From Hepatocystis sp. ex Piliocolobus tephrosceles (taxonomy: Eukaryota; Apicomplexa; Aconoidasida; Haemosporida; Plasmodiidae): a stretch of 39,166 nucleotides of DNA. The first letter of the stretch is position 1; every line of letters starts with the position of its first letter. The stretch spans positions 1 through 39,166 of the forward strand of contig CABPSV020000048.1 of assembly GCA_902459845.2 (NCBI GenBank), given 5' to 3'. The notes under the pieces were generated by a model. That model saw only the letters and a program-made list of their open reading frames with translations, had not been told where the DNA came from and ran no database searches. The translations under genes were made by a program, and so were the position numbers. Below are positions 1-36,094 of the stretch, one piece after another.

Positions 1-47
1 ATAAAATATAAAATATAAAATATAAAATATAAAATATAAAATATAAA
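1..47. repeat. 7-bp tandem repeat ATAAAAT at window edge
   Basis: The window opens inside a short tandem array with unit ATAAAAT, about six to seven copies. It is followed by a T run and a segment (about 50-110) that resembles 2430-2500, upstream of the second aminotransferase gene. The array is cut by the window edge, so its true length is unknown. Confidence 0.8.
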
Positions 48-176
48 TTTTTTTTTTCTAAGTACATATATATTAGTGTATACCTACATATTTTTTAGTT
101 TATATTTCAAAAAAAAAGAAAAAAAAAAAAAAGATTAAAATAAATAAAAAAAAAGTGTTTAGATAGATAATACATA

Positions 177-361
177 CACATATACATACATACATATATA
201 CATACATACATACAAACATACATACAAACATACATACATAGAAACATATATACATACATACATATATACATACATACATATATACATACATACATATATA
301 CATACATACATACATATATACATACATACATATATACATACATACATATATACATACATAC
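177..361. repeat. 16-bp minisatellite CATACATACATATATA upstream of OAT copy 1
   Basis: An imperfect array with a 16-bp period lies just 5' of the first OAT gene and ends about 33 bp before its start codon. The same position upstream of the second OAT gene (2915-2940) carries only one or two units. The array therefore expanded, or contracted, after the duplication. It probably lies in the 5' UTR or core promoter. Confidence 0.85.
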
Positions 362-394
362 AATTTCGTTTTTCACTAACCATCACAAACCAAA

Positions 395-1681
395 ATGGAT
401 TTTTTAAAAACATTAAAAACCACTCAGGACTATATAAACACCGACCAGGAATATGGCACACACCACTGCAAAACTATCCCTGTTGTATTAGCAAGAGGAG
501 AAGGTGTTTATGTATATGACGTTGAAGGTAAAAGGTATTATGATTTTTTATCAGGTTACTCGTGTTTAAATCAAGGACATTGTCATCCTTCAATATTAAA
601 TGCTATGATAAATCAAGCAAAAACATTATCAACATGTAGTAGAGCATTTTATAATAACATGTTAGGTACATGTAACCGATATCTTTGCGAAGTCTTTGGT
701 TATGATAAAGCTTTGTTGATGAACTCGGGAGCAGAAGCTAATGAAGTGGCGTTTAAGTTATGTAGGAAGTGGGGATATGAAGTAAAAAAAATTCCAGAAA
801 ATATGGCTAAGATAGTAGTATGTAAAAATAACTTTTGTGGGAGGACTATAGCTTGTATATCCTGTTCGAATTATACTTTTTGTACAAAAAACTTTGGACC
901 TTTATTACCAAATTTTATAAGCGTAGAATATAACAATGTAGAAGAATTAGAAAATGCACTAAAAGACTTTAACGTGTGTGCTTTTTTCGTTGAACCAGTA
1001 CAAGGAGAAGCAGGTGTTATTTTACCTTCCAATACTTATTTTAAAAAAGTACAAGATTTGTGTAAAAAATATAATGTATTATTTGTAGCTGATGAAATTC
1101 AAACAGGTTTAGGAAGAACAGGTTATTTATTAAGTTTACAACGTTACAATGTTAAACCTGATTTGACTTTAATTGGTAAAGCTTTATCTGGAGGTTTTTA
1201 TCCTGTATCTGCTGTTTTAGGGAATAACGATGTCATGCTCTTATTAAAACCAGGTGATCATGGTTCAACTTATGGTGGTAATCCATTAGCTTCAGCAATA
1301 ACTATAGAAGCAATAGATGTTATAATTAGAGAAAAGTTATGTGAAAAATCAGAAAATTTAGGTAAAATATTTTTAAATGCATTAAGAGTATATTTACAAC
1401 GCAGTCAAATAATAAAAGAGATTAGAGGGTTAGGTCTAATGTGTGCTATAGAATTTAAAAAAGAGTTTTGTCCAAATTTATTTAACTTTTGTGTAAAACT
1501 GAAAGAAAATGGTATAGTTGCAATGTATGTACATGACAAAACGATTCGATTGTCACCTCCATTATGCATTACTGAAGAGCAACTTAATGAATGTGTACAA
1601 ATTATTTTGAAAACGTTTCGACACTTTGATGAGAATGTGCCCGAGTATAGTGATTCGTGCAAACCTGTTTTACAAAATTAA
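395..1681 (+). CDS. OAT: Ornithine aminotransferase-like protein, copy 1
   Basis: A 428-residue class-III (fold type I) PLP-dependent aminotransferase. The family enzyme moves the delta-amino group of ornithine to 2-oxoglutarate, giving glutamate semialdehyde and glutamate; in malaria parasites it is cytosolic and links arginine/ornithine to proline and polyamine metabolism. Visible motifs are FLSGYS (Tyr55 in the second Tyr of human numbering 85), GHCHP, NSGAEA (PLP phosphate), GRT (Arg150 = human Arg180), EPVQGEAG (Glu205 = human Glu235), DEIQTGLGRTG (Asp233), the Schiff-base Lys262 in GKALSGG (human Lys292), HGSTYGGNP and Arg385 (human Arg413). The alignment to human OAT is ungapped from residue 25 to 262. 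Cys25 sits where OATs have the ornithine-contacting Tyr55. The C-terminus runs about 14 residues past the usual ~414. The start is the first ATG in AAAATGG context. No intron is seen. The family call is firm; ornithine as substrate is uncertain. The human numbering is from memory. Confidence 0.93.
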   Translation: MDFLKTLKTTQDYINTDQEYGTHHCKTIPVVLARGEGVYVYDVEGKRYYDFLSGYSCLNQGHCHPSILNAMINQAKTLSTCSRAFYNNMLGTCNRYLCEVFGYDKALLMNSGAEANEVAFKLCRKWGYEVKKIPENMAKIVVCKNNFCGRTIACISCSNYTFCTKNFGPLLPNFISVEYNNVEELENALKDFNVCAFFVEPVQGEAGVILPSNTYFKKVQDLCKKYNVLFVADEIQTGLGRTGYLLSLQRYNVKPDLTLIGKALSGGFYPVSAVLGNNDVMLLLKPGDHGSTYGGNPLASAITIEAIDVIIREKLCEKSENLGKIFLNALRVYLQRSQIIKEIRGLGLMCAIEFKKEFCPNLFNFCVKLKENGIVAMYVHDKTIRLSPPLCITEEQLNECVQIILKTFRHFDENVPEYSDSCKPVLQN

Positions 1682-2971
1682 AACTTTTACATGGATATAC
1701 ATATATACATATAATAGTTATGCACATATTGCTTAAAGATAACAAAAAACATTGATCAGTATTATGATTTTTTTTTTTTAATTTTATAGCTAGCGATATA
1801 TAAATGTGTACTTATGTTATACGTATGTATACATATGTGTAAAACACAACATGTTAAATTATTTTAATTTTAATACAATTTACATATAGACAAGTTTATG
1901 CACCCATGTTAATTTTTTTTTTTACCTTTTTAACAAACACATATGTACATTCATGTTATAGTCATATATATATATATACTTTTTTTTTATTATTTAAATG
2001 CATTGATCGTACATTATTTCTTATTTAAAACTTTAATAAATAAATATCAAAAAAAAGTAAGGGATAAAAACAGTAACTTATTTCTATTTTATTTTATTTT
2101 TTATATATTATTTTCTATAAATACCTGATAAAATTGTGGTTTTTAAATATATGCATAAAAAAACTTTATAAATTTAGAAAAAACATGTATATATAAAATA
2201 ATAAAATTATTTAATATAGAGAATATTATGTATACTCCAAAAAAAAAAAAAAAAAGTGCAGTGAAAATCATACAGTTTGTTCATAAGTAACTAATATAAA
2301 TAGAAATTAGTAAATCCGAAATATATATTTACAAATCTAAAACCTAACATCATATAACACAAAAAAGCGAAAATAATATGTCAAAAATACAGGATCTAAA
2401 ATTTAAAATATATAATCCAAAATCTAAAATTTTTTTTTTTTCTAAGTACATATATATTAATGGTGTACCTACACATTGCTTAATTTACATTTCCAAAAAA
2501 AAAAAAATAAATAAAATAAATAACCCATTTACGCATTCTATATTTGCTAAACATATGTATTAGCCCTTTCGTACATACAATTTAAAATTTTATTTTTTTT
2601 TTTATATTATATAAAGTTGTCACATATACATATTAAACACAATGTTATACATGTAGGAACTACATTTTATTATATAAATATTTATATATAAAAAGATTTA
2701 TAAATATATAGATATAGTTATCCTTTACCCTATGTATACCAAACTAAAAAATATTACAAAAATAGTTTTTTTTTTTTTTGTGTTTCATTTTAAATTAATA
2801 AAACTGTAGAACATGTATTACCATATTGGTATATTTTCTTATCTACACATATACACAAAAAATATTTATATTTAAAAAAAAAAATAAAATAAAAAGAAAA
2901 TATTTAGGTAGATAATACATACATATATACATACATACAATTTCATTTTTCACTAACCATCACAAACCAAA
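1682..2971. other. Intergenic region between the two OAT genes
   Basis: This holds the copy 1 3' flank (duplicated up to about 2035), then AT-rich DNA with A/T runs and the presumed promoter and leader of copy 2. The 22 bases before both start codons, including TTTTTCACTAACCATCACAA, are shared, which marks a conserved leader. Short open frames at 1943-2128 and 2378-2563 are Lys/Ile/Tyr-rich and look like chance. I see no other gene. Confidence 0.7.
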
Positions 2972-4258
2972 ATGGATTTTTTAAAAACCTTAAAAACCAC
3001 TCAAGACTATATAGACAACGACCTGGAATATGGCACACACTACTGCAAAACTATCCCTGTTGTATTAGCAAGAGGAGAAGGTGTTTATGTATATGACGTT
3101 GAAGGTAAAAGGTATTATGATTTTTTATCAGGTTACTCTTGTGTAAATCAAGGACACTGTCATCCTTCAATAATAAATGTTATGGTAAATCAAGCCAAAA
3201 CATTAGCAGCATGTAGTGCAGTGTTTCATAATAATACGACAGGTATATGTAATCGATATCTTTGTAAAATTTTTGGTTATGATAAAGCTATGCTACTGAA
3301 CTCGGGATCAGAAGCTAGTGATATGGCGTTTAAGTTATGTAGGAAGTGGGGATATGAAGTAAAAAAAATTCCAGAAAATATGGCTAAAATAGTAGTATGT
3401 AAAAATAACTATTGTGGAAGAACTATGGCTTGTATATCCTGCTCAAATGATAATTTATGTAGAACAAACTTTGGACCCTTTTTATCAAATTTTATAAGCG
3501 TAGAATATAACAATGTAGAAGAATTAGAAAATGCACTAAAAGATCCTAATGTATGTGCTTTTTTCGCTGAACCAGTACAAGGAATAGCAGGTGTTATTTT
3601 ACCTTCCAATACTTATTTTAAAAAAGTACAAGATTTGTGTAAAAAATATAATGTATTATTTGTAGCTGATGAAATTCAAACAGGTTTAGGAAGAACAGGT
3701 TATTTATTAAGTTTACAACGTTATAATGTTAAACCTGATTTGACTTTAATTGGTAAAGCTTTATCTGGAGGTCTGTATCCTGTATCTGCTGTTTTAGGGA
3801 ATAACGATGTCATGCTCTTATTAAAACCAGGCAATCATGGTTCAACTTATGGTGGTAATCCATTAGCTTCAGCAATAACTATAGAAGCAATAGATGTTAT
3901 AATTAGAGAAAAGTTATGTGAAAAATCAGAAAATTTAGGTAAAATATTTTTAAATGCATTAAGAGTATATTTACAACGCAGTCAAATAATAAAAGATATT
4001 AGAGGGTTAGGTCTGATGTGTGCTATAGAATTTAAAAGAGAGTTTTATCCAAACATGTGTAACTTTTGTGTAAAACTGAAAGAAAATGGTATAGTTGCAA
4101 TGTATGTACATGACAAAACGGTTCGATTGTTACCTCCATTATGCATTACTGAAGAGCAACTTAATGAATGCGTACAAATTATTTTGAAAACGGTTCGACA
4201 CTTTGATGAGAATGTGCCAGAGTATTGTAATTCGTGCAAACCTGTTTTACAAAATTAA
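2972..4258 (+). CDS. OAT: Ornithine aminotransferase-like protein, copy 2 (divergent active site)
   Basis: A second 428-residue class-III aminotransferase in the same orientation, aligning to copy 1 without gaps. By my count about 48 residues differ, some 36 of them within residues 15-205; residues 206-265 are identical and only three differ between 206 and about 360. Lys262 (PLP), Asp233, Arg150, Arg385, Tyr55 of FLSGYS and the HGSTYGGNP loop are kept. Changes fall at active-site positions: Ile205 (GIAG) replaces the Glu equivalent to human Glu235, Tyr147 replaces Phe177, Cys25 replaces human Tyr55 (also in copy 1), and the OAT signature SRAFYNN becomes SAVFHNN. The frame is intact, so this is not a simple pseudogene. 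It could have a new amino donor, a regulatory (heteromeric) role, or be decaying. The function is not resolvable from sequence. Confidence 0.9.
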   Translation: MDFLKTLKTTQDYIDNDLEYGTHYCKTIPVVLARGEGVYVYDVEGKRYYDFLSGYSCVNQGHCHPSIINVMVNQAKTLAACSAVFHNNTTGICNRYLCKIFGYDKAMLLNSGSEASDMAFKLCRKWGYEVKKIPENMAKIVVCKNNYCGRTMACISCSNDNLCRTNFGPFLSNFISVEYNNVEELENALKDPNVCAFFAEPVQGIAGVILPSNTYFKKVQDLCKKYNVLFVADEIQTGLGRTGYLLSLQRYNVKPDLTLIGKALSGGLYPVSAVLGNNDVMLLLKPGNHGSTYGGNPLASAITIEAIDVIIREKLCEKSENLGKIFLNALRVYLQRSQIIKDIRGLGLMCAIEFKREFYPNMCNFCVKLKENGIVAMYVHDKTVRLLPPLCITEEQLNECVQIILKTVRHFDENVPEYCNSCKPVLQN

Positions 4259-4530
4259 AAATTTTACATGGATATATATATATATATCTATGCACATATT
4301 TTTTAAAGATAAAAAAAAACATTGATCAGTATTATGATTTTTTTTGTTGAATTTTATAGCTAGCGATATATAAGTGTGTACTTATGTTATACGTATGTAT
4401 ACATATGTGTAAAACACAACATGTTAAACTATTTTAATTTTAATGCAATTTACATATAGACAAGTTTATACACCCATGTTAATTTTTTTTTTACCATTTT
4501 AACAAACACATATATATATTCATGTTATAG

Positions 4531-4567
<37 letters not shown>

Positions 4568-4940
4568 TTTCTTATTATTTAAAGGCATTGATTGTACATT
4601 ATTTCTTATTTAAAATTTTAGCAATAAATGTAAAACAAATAAATAAGATATAAACATTTTAATATTTCATTAATACTATTTATTCAAAAAAACGAGTTAA
4701 GTTAAATATCTATATAAGCCGCAGTATTTACAAAAACCAACAGGTATATACAGTGGCTGTAATTTATGTTCATATGTGCATATATACTTATGTATATTTT
4801 TATTATTAAAAATTAACAATTTTGTTTAAGCCATTTCCTAAGCATTTACTTTTTCGATCTTTGTTTTAAAAAAAAAAAAAAAAAAAAAAAAGTAATAACA
4901 TATACGGATGCTGGCAAAAAAAACTGTGCAAAGACGTTGA

Positions 4941-5471: not shown

Positions 5472-8330
5472 ATGAGTGATGATGCTAACACAGACTATAA
5501 TTTTTTACACAATAATGACGTTAAAATAATGATAGAAAACAACGAAAAGGATATAAACTCTTTTGTTCTTAATAAAAAAATGAACTTAACGCAAGAAAAA
5601 AATGAAAATATTAAAAAAAAAAAAAAATTAATTTTAAATCATCCTGATGTTTTTGTCAACAATTCAATTTTATCAAAAGAATTAAAAAAAAACATACTTA
5701 CATACAATGAATTACTATTTGGTGATATAAATAAAAGTTATGAACAAATAACAGATCTATACAATAGTAACAATTTTAAACAAACTATGGAGAAACTAAA
5801 ATATAATTGTAATAAATCTATACAAACAAACATCCATTTAAATCATATTTTTAAAATACCTTTATTAATGTATATATCTAATGAAAAAAAAGACTTACAA
5901 CAATCTATAAAATATATTAAAATCGGTTCTAAAATAAAAACTTTCCTTTATAAATATTATTATACTTCTAATTTAAACAACGTACAATCAATAAATTATT
6001 TAAAAACGTATGAACAACAGATGAATAAGGAAGTTAAAAAAACTAAAGAATATATAAATAAAACTATTATGAAATGTGAAAATATACAAAACTTAAAACT
6101 ATATTTGCAATATTTATATGATATATTTCATTATTTTAATTTGACGTATGATGGGTCAAACATGAAGACAAAAATGGGAGCTAGCGAAGATAAAAATGGG
6201 GTAACTATGGAAGATGGTAAAGAAAAAAATGGGGTAACTATGGACGATGGTAAAGAAAAAAATGGGGTAAATAGTATAAACGAGTTAACACAAACGTCAG
6301 CAAACGAAGATGACAGAACCGAACAAACAAAAATAGAACACGGAAAAAACACATTTTTAAAATTAAAACATTATAATATATTATCATCTATAAAAAAGGA
6401 ACTTTTTTTTAATGAAAAAGAAAATTACATAAGTGTTTACCAAATTATAAATACAATTTTAAATAAAATTGCACAATTAACAAAATTATACGAAATATTA
6501 TTTAATTCAGTTGATACATTATTGTGTAAACATATAATATATTTATATTACTTTGCGCTTATGTTAATAAATATTAAAATAATACATAAAAATAATTTAC
6601 TATTAACAAATAATGACGGTATTACTAACAATGTTAATGTAAATGATGAAATAAATATATTAAATAATTTTAATAATAGAGTACTTACACAAACGAGTAA
6701 TAAAAATTGTTATAATGATGATTCTGTTAGGGGAGATAAATTGTTTGTAAAAGATCAAGTGCGAGATCATGAAAAGGAAAAGGGAAAGGAAAAGGAAAAG
6801 GAAAAGGAAAAGGAAAAGGAAAAAGAAAAAGAAAAAGAAAAAGAAAAAGAAAAAGAAAAGGAAAAAGAAAAAAAAAAGGAAAAGCGTAACATACCAAGTG
6901 AAAAAAATAACGAATCCATTAGGGAGTACGGACAAAAGAGCAACGACAAAAATGAAGAAAAAAATAAAAATATAAAAAAAAATATTTCCACTAACATTGC
7001 AACTACGAAATATCCATTTTTAAATTTAAATGGTTGCATATTTAATTATATATACTACTATGTTTTTTTCAAAGACAAGCAAAAAAAAATTATTTATAAC
7101 GATTGTAATAAGAAAAAAGAAAATTGCAACAATGTAAATAATAATACTACTACGGATGGTATTATGACAACGGTAAAAAACGATAAATATTATACACATA
7201 AACAAAATACATATTTACAAGATAAGGCTACTAACATGACACATACCCAAAATGCGTCTATACAAAACCATTTTAACTTGATTAACTATTTATATAAAGA
7301 AGAATGCGAAAAATATAAAATAGAAAAAAAGAAAAAGAAAAAAAAGTTTATATATTTCAACCATTATACATCGATTCAATATTATATTCAAAAACAAAAA
7401 ATGAAAGAAACTGTTATTAATTTGAATTATTGTAGAAAAAATTATTTGCGTTTTTTTTTACTAAATGGTAACAATAGTGAAAAAAACAATAATAACATGC
7501 AAAAAGGCAACAATAATAGCAACAAAAACTATATGGTAGGCCTTGAAATATCTACTTTATTCGACAACTTATTAAATAAAATATTCATAACATACATTTA
7601 CGAGTTTCTTCAAAAGAATAATTATTACTTTTTAAAAAACATTTTATTTTATAATGATAACGATGAAGGTAGTTATAATAACAGCAATGACTATAATAAC
7701 AACTCAAATGACATAAGTGCAATTAGAACGTCTATTAAAAATCAAAAAAAAGATTTACTGATAAACGTTTTCGAAGTTCTAAAATCAAAAAAATATGACA
7801 ATAATGTGAGTGAGTATGATAAGGTACTAGGAACGGGTTCCACAAATGTTGACCCATATGACAACACACCCAACCCAGACCAAACAAAACATATATACAA
7901 AAGCTATAATAAAAAATTAGATTTAACAAAAATTACAGAAAAAATAAAACATCCTTTTTTAGCTACCTATTTTTACAACATTATTTTTATTTTAAGACAT
8001 ATTAAACTATATATTGATAAATCTTTATTTTATATAATAATACATTTATTTGAAAATTCGTTTACAAATATTATTGAAATATTAACAATGAAAGTAGTAA
8101 CAAATGCAAATTTATTTTTTAAATATTCTATATTTTATTTTATCATTGAAAATCTTTTTAATATTATTTTCCCTTATACATTTTCATTCCTTTCGTGCGC
8201 TTTTGAAATGAGCCTTACAAATTCAACGGTTAGTTTGCGGTGGTATACAATACGCATGTATAAGTCTGTACATATACAACATGTTGTATATTGTTTTTAT
8301 GTGCATAAATATATACTAAAAAAAAATGAT

Positions 8331-8361
<31 letters not shown>

Positions 8362-8482
8362 TCGTATTATTAACGTATATGATGAGACTACTCCAATTTT
8401 TATTTTCGACTTTTTTTTTATATTATTTTTTTTTTTTTCGCAGGAAAAAATACTTAACGTTCTTAGTAACTTTTCTATGTAA
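5472..8482 (+). CDS. COG8: Conserved oligomeric Golgi complex subunit 8-like protein (two exons)
   Basis: Exon 1 is 5472-8228 (919 codons) and exon 2 is 8444-8482, giving 931 residues. The segment at residues about 75-230 resembles COG8/Dor1 proteins: an ELL...SYEQITDLY helix pair, then a stretch ending in IFKIPLLM, like the ILEIPQLM motif of animal COG8, followed by a segment matching the (Y)EEALELAAYVRRL helix. A later EISTLFDNLLNKIFITYIY segment fits the second half of the family. COG8 is part of lobe B of the COG tether for retrograde intra-Golgi vesicles. The protein is longer than animal COG8 (about 600 residues) because of parasite-specific inserts: a 39-bp repeat (KNGVTM-DDGKE, about 6191-6270), a Lys-Glu run near residues 433-470, and Asn/Lys-rich loops. 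Splicing is inferred: GTTAGT donor, TTCGCAG acceptor, phase 0, removing a hydrophobic AT-rich tail. The family call rests on my memory of COG8. Confidence 0.62.
6769..6884 (+). repeat. Lys-Glu (GAAAAG/GAAAAA) hexanucleotide repeat in the COG8-like CDS
   Basis: About 18 near-perfect hexamers encode an alternating Lys-Glu stretch, which may form a single charged alpha helix. The unit is a multiple of three, so length change keeps the frame. It lies in an insert between conserved blocks. Confidence 0.85.
8229..8443 (+). other. Predicted 215-bp intron of the COG8-like gene
   Basis: Starts GTTAGT and ends with a long T tract plus CGCAG. It contains (AT)n typical of parasite introns. The intron is open in the upstream frame, so unspliced mRNA would still encode an alternative tail up to a stop at 8487-8489. 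Confidence 0.65.
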
Positions 8483-8790
8483 CCAATAAAATAGGAACTG
8501 TTTTCTGTTTTTTTAAATAGCATATGCTTACTTTTTTTTTAGCACCTCCGTCCTGCCTTATAACATTATAACAAATAACAAATTACTATAATGTTAGTGC
8601 AAAAATAAGTCTTATATGTAAATATTTTTTTTTTTTTTTTGGTAATATATTTTTATATATACAATTACTATTTTATATTTGTGTACATGTTTATATACCA
8701 GTTACGTAGCAAAAAAAAAAAAAAAGCGTTATAGAATCGTTTGCACAGGTCAGACATTTGTTCCATGCAATGATATCATGCTTAAATATT

Positions 8791-9757: not shown

Positions 9758-10940
9758 AAACTTAAATATAAATATAAATATAAAAAAGAAACACCGAGTG
9801 ACAAATTAATATAACAAAATAAAAAAAATAAATTTTATAAACCTAAAAGGAACAAAAAAAAAAAAAGGAAAAAGAAGAAAAAAAAAAAAAAAAAAAAAAA
9901 AAATAGAAAAAAGATAAAAAAAAAAAATAAGAAGAAAAAATATAAACATACACAATTTGATCATTGTTATATAAATTTCTTCGAATACTTGTATTTAAAT
10001 ATACATGTGCATTTGTAATTATATATCTTCATATACGTGTTTATGTTTGCAGAACAAAATTTTAACGGTATTTTTATTTTTTTTTTTGAGAAAAAACACA
10101 TAACTGTTATGTTTCTGCAATGTTTAATTTGTAGGCAAACATGATATAATGTGAGATTTGCTTACATGAGCTTGTAAATCTTCATCTTTCACACGAGCAA
10201 ACGTTTTATATACATACATATATACATACATATATATATATATATATACATTTTTTTATTAACGCTGCAAATTGCTTGCTAACTATATAAACAAAAACAT
10301 AAATGTTACGAAATTGTTAACAGATATTTGCATAAAGAAAAATTCGTACATTCGATGCATGTTCTCTTTGTATGAACACCTTTTTATAAATATTTATAGA
10401 TAGCTCGCTTTTTTTGCTCATTTATTACTATTTCATGTGTTTTTATATCATACGTTTTTCCATTGCATAATTTGTATATGCATATATACGCCTGTTAACA
10501 CGTACACGCATATACAGGTACTTCCTTAACTCAATTACTTATACTTGAACAACCATTATGTTTATGTTGTATACTATCATATTACATACTCAATCCATCC
10601 ATATGTTTTAAATGCTGTATTTATGTTGTACACTATATCATTAAAAAAAAAATAAATAAAAGTGAACGAATTTATTATTAAAATTTTATGTACAATTGAT
10701 ACAGTTCGTTCATTTTTGTCACGTTTACGTTCATAAGTGTTCGTGTGTGTTTTTTTTTTTTTTTTTTTCGAATTTTATTAACTTTTTTTTTTATTTTATT
10801 TTTTTTATTTAATACGATATAACGTTGTAATGTCCCAAATCAACCTAAACGGATCAAAATAATATGCATGTGTACTTACTACCCACTCCATTAATACTTT
10901 ATGCCAAATTCATTTTTATGTTAACGTGACAAAAAAAAGA

Positions 10941-29552
<18,612 letters not shown>

Positions 29553-34804: not shown

Positions 34805-36094
34805 CATTTATTGTTTTTTTTTAAATGTATATAAAACCAGAAAATACATATATATATATATATATATGGTGTTTATGTGTATGTATACATGTTAGACATT
34901 TTTTATAGAGGGTTAAATTTACACAGTTTGTGCTCTTATTCCACATTTGACGATATAATTTATTTATTGTTATATAAAAGACTACCAACAAGAAAAGAAA
35001 TAAGTGATAAAAATTGTTACATAGAAAACAAATTTAAAAATGCAGACTTAACAAAATTAATAAAAATAATAAAAATACTAGAAGAAGACAATTTCTTAGA
35101 ACTAATAAGAATTAGTATATTACAACTTTCATTGAAACAACAAATGTATACTAGAGATAATAATTTAAATTATTATGATGTTATGGCATATTCTTTAAAA
35201 TTGTTAATGTTTTTTTATTATAAAAAAATAAATTACTCCTATGATATGAAACATATAAAATATGATAATTTATGTTCACATATTATTACATACTATGGAA
35301 ATAAAAAGTTTTATAAATGTAACGAAAATAATGAAAAAAAAAGTGACGAAAATAATGAAAAACAAAGTGACGAAAATAATGACAAACAATGTGATGAGAA
35401 AAAAAAACTTTTAAATGCTCTTTTTATTTTACTATGTGAAAATGATATAAACGAAAACACCTTTTTAATAAGAATGATATCTAATGCGAATAGTAATAAC
35501 TACTTTAATATATGTCTATCCGCTATAAGTTTTTTTATTGATACTTTGAAAAAAATAGATTTTTACCTAGCCTTAACATCTTTTTTAAATTTTTATACAC
35601 TTTTAAAAAAAAGAGAGGCACAAAATAACAAAAAAAAAATCGGAAAAAATGCCAAAACTATAAACGAAAACACAAATGAAAACACAAATGAAAACACAAA
35701 TGAAACCCCAATTGACATAATGAACATTTACAATATTGAATTATTTTTTTACAATAATAATTCCTATGTTAAAAAAAATAAAATATTAAAAAAATATTTA
35801 ACAACTTTTTGTAATGGCACATCGCAATATAATATAAACTTAATTAATGCTTTTATACAAATTGAAGAAACGATTTTGAAACATAAAAATAAATACCCAT
35901 CATGTTATTTTTATGCACTTTTAATTTTCCACGTGTTAGACATACCATTAGAATTATTATCTTCTTTTTACTTCTTAACAAGGTTAGCAAGTTTTACTGC
36001 ACATATAAATGAACAAAACCAAAATAGAAAAATCGTTAAATTTTCTAGTGTATATATAGGAAATACAACTATGAGACAGCCGGATGAAGTATAG
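34408..36094 (+). CDS. Citrate synthase-like protein, probable pseudoenzyme (two exons)
   Basis: Exon 1 is 34408-34624 and exon 2 is 34911-36094, giving 466 residues; the 286-bp intron starts GTGAAA and ends ATAGAG, phase 1. The join creates FEFKG-LNLHSLCSYSTFDD, matching the YRG(Y)xIxxLxxxxxFxE motif of citrate synthases, followed by LLLYKRLPTRKE (family: LLxxGxLPT). The C-terminus has YPSCYFYA (family YPNVDFYS), FYFLTRLASFTAHINEQ (family FxxSRxxGWxAHxxEQ) and VYIG near the end. The three catalytic sites look lost: Tyr405 for the Asp, no LHGGAN-type His near the LKKIDFYL stretch, and no GHRVYK-like His. The first ~37 residues are basic with no acidic residue, consistent with a mitochondrial targeting peptide. 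Asn/Glu/Lys repeats interrupt the middle (about 35318-35400, 35675-35710). Genuine citrate-forming activity is unlikely. Synteny suggests the conserved Plasmodium 'citrate synthase-like' locus. Confidence 0.82.
34625..34910 (+). other. Predicted 286-bp intron of the citrate-synthase-like gene
   Basis: Donor GTGAAA, acceptor TTTATAGAG (second AG used). It contains ten C at 34771-34780 directly followed by about 24 T. Using the first AG (34908) instead would put a stop right after the junction, which decides the acceptor. Confidence 0.75.

Follow-up and report, generated by a model that had tools for sequence, protein, structure and literature searches.

In malaria parasites, ornithine aminotransferase (OAT) connects the breakdown of arginine with proline and glutamate (PMC7909243), and thioredoxin is reported to raise the in vitro activity of the Plasmodium falciparum enzyme by 75% (PMC2660430). 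Glu235 of human OAT is believed to act as a shield for Arg413 in the half-reaction with ornithine, a contact that is thought chiefly to limit the reaction with glutamate (PMC13327489; cf. PMC9136103). The E235A variant cuts the efficiency with ornithine to 1/1000 and E235S only about 8-fold; variants at Tyr55, which contacts the alpha-amino group of ornithine, fall below 1/100, and Phe177 contacts the cofactor pyridoxal phosphate (PLP) (PMC13327489). Here, we describe two OAT genes in tandem (copies A and B) on contig CABPSV020000048.1, the whole of which (39,166 nucleotides, forward strand) is called the window. The divergence of the pair is a mosaic with a single ratio of replacement to silent substitution rates (dN/dS, omega) for both of its zones, and otherwise invariant residues have been lost unevenly, six of them in B alone. 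From these observations we infer gene conversion as the process, an order of events and a changed specificity. The account we favor, and hold to be moderately probable, is that a tandem duplication was followed by ectopic conversion of the gene ends, leaving a working copy A and a retained copy B with an altered pocket. The new point would be a retained OAT paralogue that lacks the switch glutamate.

The two open reading frames lie head to tail, run intact from ATG to stop and encode 428 residues each; a gap-free alignment shows 81 mismatched nucleotides and 48 replaced residues. Both passed the curated TIGR01885 cut-off of 378.4 bits (583.2 bits for A, 558.8 bits for B) and were the only class-III aminotransferase matches (two candidates, two scored) in the genome searched, an incomplete assembly of 12.39 Mb in 611 contigs that includes the window contig. 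A protein search and a Pfam model detected no third OAT copy in this incomplete genome, but additional copies may lie upstream since the contig start truncates unit 1. The homologous unit exceeds the genes: BLAST aligned 338-2068 with 2915-4654 at 92%, 3-131 with 2384-2516 at 82% and 126-194 with 2874-2939 at 86%, and the intergenic stretch between the copies matched this contig alone. Upstream of A, at about 170-337, a TACATA-type microsatellite takes the place of the unique sequence at 2517-2873 upstream of B. As the upstream sequences differ, expression of the two genes may differ as well. An assembly artefact in which two alleles or clones were set in tandem would fit a contig that starts within the 5' flank of unit 1, in low-complexity sequence. 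We nevertheless give it very little credence: the copies are 2577 bases apart and lie with their diverged flanks on a single contig, which makes two alleles of one locus unlikely, and no near-identical duplicate of two further genes of the contig turned up in the 12.39 Mb. For 34877-36094 only 20 short matches besides itself were found, at 71-83% over about 58 to 110 bases, and for the protein of 5472-8486 two weak partial matches (35% and 56%).

A first-pass annotation, made from the sequence alone, had described the pair as a patchwork of near-identity and local diversification, and this description withstood recounting. Codons 58-205 (the core) hold 54 of the 81 nucleotide differences, compared with 9 in the 465 nucleotides of codons 206-360, 7 in the 171 of codons 1-57 and 11 in the 207 of codons 361-428 plus stop. 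Thirty-six replacements precede residue 206, 32 of them in the core, with five more at residues 206-360 and seven at 361-428; residues 26-57, also announced as nearly identical, carry no replacement and one silent change. When the boundaries were left free, replacements clustered best in 68-172, and none of 500 permutations gave a cluster as strong. Silent changes, counted at degenerate codons for the same residue in both copies, are likewise not uniform: 15/113 in the core against 9/260 elsewhere (Fisher p=0.0009) and against 30/613 when every remaining silent site is pooled with the near-flank sites (p=0.002), both with the boundaries of the first-pass annotation, and against 3/148 in codons 206-360 (p=0.0004). 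The longest identical run between A and B measures 163 bp, a length reached in 15 of 10000 permutations. The core itself is not uniform and contains an identical run of 64 bp in codons 118-139. Divergence of the 5' flank is on two levels, 20/129 in the distal and 1/57 in the proximal part, and 18 of the 34 differences in the 3' flank fall in one 99-site block near its far end. Clustered multi-nucleotide mutation as the source of the hot core was unsupported (9 adjacent difference pairs, 6.4 expected, p=0.18).

Conversion was probed with permutation scans and with codon models, the latter bearing on whether the core differs in age or in selection. By codon maximum likelihood, silent divergence (dS) is 0.315 in the core and 0.081 elsewhere, with omega 0.35 and 0.31, respectively. 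A model with one age and two omegas for core and rest reached a log-likelihood (lnL) of -1966.82 and one with two ages and a single omega -1960.79, which puts the age-differs model ahead by 6.03 log units at equal parameter number. Of 200 simulations under one age, a single one reached the observed gap; under two ages the mean gap was 6.23 and the observed gap was exceeded in 53 of 100. A second age is required (p=0.0005) and a second omega adds nothing (dN/dS 0.34 inside the core, 0.32 outside; p=0.91). With the core redrawn as 68-172, the values were -1966.13 for one age and -1961.13 for two. Since dN/dS is alike in and out of the core, the core looks older between the copies rather than faster-selected and appears to differ from the rest in age more than in selective regime. 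Over the whole gene, pairwise omega is 0.35 and below 1 at p=0.0001, of which constraint on A alone could supply part. Homogenization of the ends by conversion, proposed in the first pass, is thus the better of the two models tested and the likely, though not proven, cause of the mosaic. The accompanying idea of a diversifying core holds in the unequal replacements of the two branches given below and fails in dN/dS.

The best foreign match to both copies is P0002, an OAT of 427 residues that is 82% identical to A and 79% to B and is filed in UniRef under the red colobus monkey Piliocolobus tephrosceles. P0002 groups with A and B in the tree (support 100/100), and these three group with four Plasmodium OATs at 99/98, which marks P0002 as a parasite protein. 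Hepatocystis is reported to have been assembled from the reads behind the red colobus genome (PMC7425995), so we take P0002 as the Hepatocystis OAT, from which genus it almost surely comes. On this placement the organism that carries the pair is Hepatocystis-like and no ordinary Plasmodium. The best tree of the core, the segment that conversion has touched least, places A with B (95/93) and leaves P0002 outside; in approximately unbiased tests a core tree with B and P0002 together was rejected (p-AU 0.008), and one with A and P0002 together was not (p-AU 0.139). The best core tree favors a duplication that would postdate the split from the line of P0002, taken as Hepatocystis ex Piliocolobus. 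The unrejected grouping of A with P0002 would also suit a core of B that was imported by recombination from a divergent lineage or allele instead of being the old part of a duplicate formed in situ, and P0002 has derived residues in common with either copy (V70, A79 and A80 with B; Y160, K165 and F192 with A). We consider such an import quite improbable, as the best core tree nonetheless pairs A with B and the incomplete genome yielded no further OAT.

Functionally relevant residues were lost asymmetrically, a point that the first-pass annotation had missed. Columns were compared with 220 other OAT-family proteins, which are all of the matches listed except P0001 and P0002; the named ones are mostly bacterial, so that the sample is uneven. 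B alone departs at six columns that are uniform in 220/220 (R83A, A84V, L90T, E117D, F147Y and E205I), and A alone departs at none. Changes at E17 and L260 are common to both copies, and Y25C is common to A, B and P0002. Human numbering follows by a gap-free offset of 30 (E205=Glu235, F147=Phe177, C25=Tyr55, Y55=Tyr85, R150=Arg180, K262=Lys292), with R385 corresponding to Arg413 after a two-residue gap. Both copies keep the PLP site (K262, D233, Q236, S291 and T292; human Lys292, Asp263, Gln266, Ser321 and Thr322) and the substrate-site residues R150, R385 and Y55. The PLP contact Phe177 and the switch residue Glu235 are present in A (F147, E205) and replaced in B (Y147, I205), so that the divergence of the PLP- and substrate-binding segment goes further than had been claimed. 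The Tyr55 counterpart, Tyr in 220/220 others, is Cys25 in A, B and P0002; this common loss weakens the classing of A as a textbook OAT, from which A, too, may depart. Residue 25 is encoded at positions 467-469 (A) and 3044-3046 (B), and positions 24, 26 and 27 are also off the common residues. When P0002 served as outgroup, a branch could be assigned to 38 of the 48 replacements: 26 fell on B and 12 on A (20 and 7 in the core). Protein branch lengths are 0.24 for B and 0.058 for A in the core, and 0.039 and 0.018 in the rest. AF2 models gave a predicted accuracy (pLDDT) of 87.1 for B and 88.0 for A, the best PDB matches of B being 3ntj and 1z7d, and B is confidently predicted to fold as an OAT.

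Judged by these residues, B is OAT-like by descent and is not classed as a working OAT; the likely reading is that A keeps the OAT function and that B persists as a paralogue whose pocket has changed. Having no counterpart of Glu235 to shield the substrate arginine, B probably reacts poorly with ornithine and would accept glutamate or a different amino donor more readily. Going further, B could be a new class-III aminotransferase that arose from OAT within the Hepatocystis lineage and uses a donor other than ornithine, with selection guarding the core from being overwritten and conversion keeping the rest alike; the missing Glu235 shield, the replaced Phe177 and the absence of Tyr55, which both copies and the Hepatocystis OAT had lost before, lead to this proposal, which we put forward tentatively. 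Finally, B could be a decaying copy or pseudoenzyme, kept intact through its youth or through renewal of its ends by conversion from A, and perhaps serving as a partner subunit, the C-terminal parts of A and B being nearly the same and mixed A/B dimers conceivable. This fate concerns only what B does and is compatible with conversion. It would account for the six lost invariant residues, the Glu235 and Phe177 counterparts included, and for the 26 assignable replacements on B against 12 on A; we regard it as rather unlikely, given the intact reading frame, the retained counterparts of Lys292, Asp263, Arg180, Arg413 and Tyr85, the confidently predicted fold, and a core pairwise omega of 0.35 for which omega=1 was rejected at p=0.0017, although A's constraint alone could supply part of that signal.

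Put together, the favored history runs as follows. OAT would have been duplicated in tandem in a Hepatocystis-like haemosporidian, most likely after the split from the line of Hepatocystis ex Piliocolobus. Ectopic gene conversion would then have copied two stretches of one gene onto the other, the 5' part between the proximal flank and about codon 57 and the C-terminal part from about codon 206 onward, whereas codons 58-205 escaped conversion or their converted versions were not kept. A would have remained the working OAT, and B would have kept the OAT fold and the PLP lysine and lost the shielding glutamate. Several points weigh against this history. The core boundaries were drawn from the same data, which makes the tests generous, and with no DNA outgroup the silent changes remain unpolarized between A and B. 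A free-boundary scan of silent changes alone picked 56-194, which was matched by 80 of 2000 permutations and hence is modest support. A heterogeneity scan with the non-coding flanks added did not isolate the core. Its best interval was 128-1978 when the distal 5' flank was included, which only separated that flank (18/1000 permutations); when that flank was left out, the scan returned an edge effect at the 3' end (176/1000 permutations). The near 3' flank is not especially alike (20/296 sites differ). The segment trees do not disagree, A and B pairing in both segments, even if their joining outside the core is expected from conversion anyway, and the core tree with A and P0002 was, as noted, not rejected. 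On the functional side, the effect of E235S in human OAT, only about 8-fold, implies that loss of the glutamate need not abolish OAT activity (PMC13327489).

The silent scan, the core branch of B about four times that of A and the loss of invariant residues specifically in B would all suit a duplication of uniform age without any conversion, in which positive selection, or lost constraint in B, added the extra replacements in codons 58-205. We think this improbable because the core has an excess of silent changes as well and because this model trails in likelihood by a gap reached in only 1 of its 200 simulations. Duplication with later conversion of the ends therefore remains our preferred explanation of the mosaic.

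Table 1. Positions in the window of the OAT copies, their flanks and the segments and codons discussed.
Feature	Position	Strand	Remarks
OAT copy A	395..1681	+	428 aa; open reading frame; TIGR01885 match; keeps Glu235, Phe177 and Arg113 counterparts
OAT copy B	2972..4258	+	428 aa; 89% identical to A; open reading frame; TIGR01885 match
Distal 5' flank, unit 1	3..131	+	homologous to 2384-2516; 20/129 aligned sites differ
Distal 5' flank, unit 2	2384..2516	+	BLAST match to 3-131
Upstream stretch of B	2517..2873	+	unmatched upstream of A by BLAST; only its two sides match
Proximal 5' flank of A	338..394	+	homologous to 2915-2971; 1/57 sites differs
3' flank of A	1682..2068	+	homologous to 4259-4654; 34/379 aligned sites differ
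3' flank of B	4259..4654	+	BLAST homology stops at 4654
Diverged core of A, codons 58-205	566..1009	+	54/444 nucleotides differ from B
Diverged core of B, codons 58-205	3143..3586	+	pairwise dS 0.315, dN 0.110 (codon maximum likelihood)
Near-identical segment of A, codons 206-360	1010..1474	+	9/465 nucleotides differ; dS 0.057
Near-identical segment of B, codons 206-360	3587..4051	+	counterpart of 1010..1474
Codons 83-84 of B, Ala-Val	3218..3223	+	Arg-Ala in 220/220 others
Codon 147 of B, Tyr for Phe	3410..3412	+	human Phe177; Phe in 220/220 others
Codon 205 of B, Ile	3584..3586	+	Glu in A (1007-1009) and 220/220 others; human Glu235

Elsewhere on the contig, the neighboring gene at 5472-8489 gave four protein matches, all from Plasmodium (P. 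gonderi, P. ovale wallikeri, P. vinckei and P. reichenowi) at 30-36%, and the reading frame at 34877-36094 matched the citrate synthase C-terminal domain with 101.5 bits. A single frame of 6208 residues at 10926-29552 combines FG-type and GLGTG repeats with a very long polyglutamine run; two pieces of it that were tried had no Pfam match, and we presume that it resembles a large nucleoporin. A search of the contigs for cytochrome b, meant to place the species, gave no match. Among genes connected with OAT metabolism, pyrroline-5-carboxylate (P5C) reductase was found on contig C6 of the genome, and the arginase family was not found in the 12.39 Mb, where its absence means little as the genome is incomplete.

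Compared with known systems, P0002 resembles the two copies in Cys25, its C-terminal tail and its length of 427 residues, and differs in that one copy was found and all six residues lost by B are kept. The tail, common to A, B and P0002, comprises the last 14 codons before the stop (1637-1678 in A, 4214-4255 in B). Four named Plasmodium clusters (P. gallinaceum, P. yoelii, P. gaboni and P. relictum) are 64-67% identical to A and 62-64% to B; their OATs have 414 residues, keep Tyr25 and Glu205 and lack the tail. Among the matches listed each of these four has one OAT, which agrees for them with the earlier expectation of a single gene in malaria parasites; P. falciparum and P. vivax had no separately named entry, and the protein database was clustered at 90%, which would hide near-identical duplicates. 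The structures of Plasmodium OATs (P. falciparum 3lg0/3ntj, P. yoelii 1z7d) share fold and family with the pair. Cysteines 154 and 163, which we take to be the thioredoxin cysteines of P. falciparum OAT, are present in A and B, and five of the six residues at 160-165 differ between the copies. Among the titles and abstract beginnings that literature searches listed, none described an OAT duplication in a haemosporidian, which is no proof of absence in print, and neither "ornithine" nor "aminotransferase" appears in the main text, as available, of two Hepatocystis genome papers (PMC7425995, PMC12187015).

As malaria-parasite paralogues with evidence of non-allelic gene conversion, DBLMSP and DBLMSP2 of P. 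falciparum are similar to the pair; they are, however, merozoite surface proteins studied with population data, while a metabolic enzyme in a single genome is concerned here (PMC10919680). The pair would offer a case for following conversion and functional divergence inside one small gene. The human OAT variants E235A, E235S, Y55A/G/H and Y85I hit the same switch glutamate or the same Tyr55 as single engineered or patient changes, whereas B combines a natural Glu-to-Ile change with five more changed invariant residues (PMC13327489). The Tyr55 loss common to the copies and P0002 hints at an OAT pocket reshaped across the whole Hepatocystis line, and the pair, with the invariant switch glutamate missing from one copy, would serve as a natural experiment on the Glu235 switch idea, hitherto probed with engineered human variants (PMC13327489).

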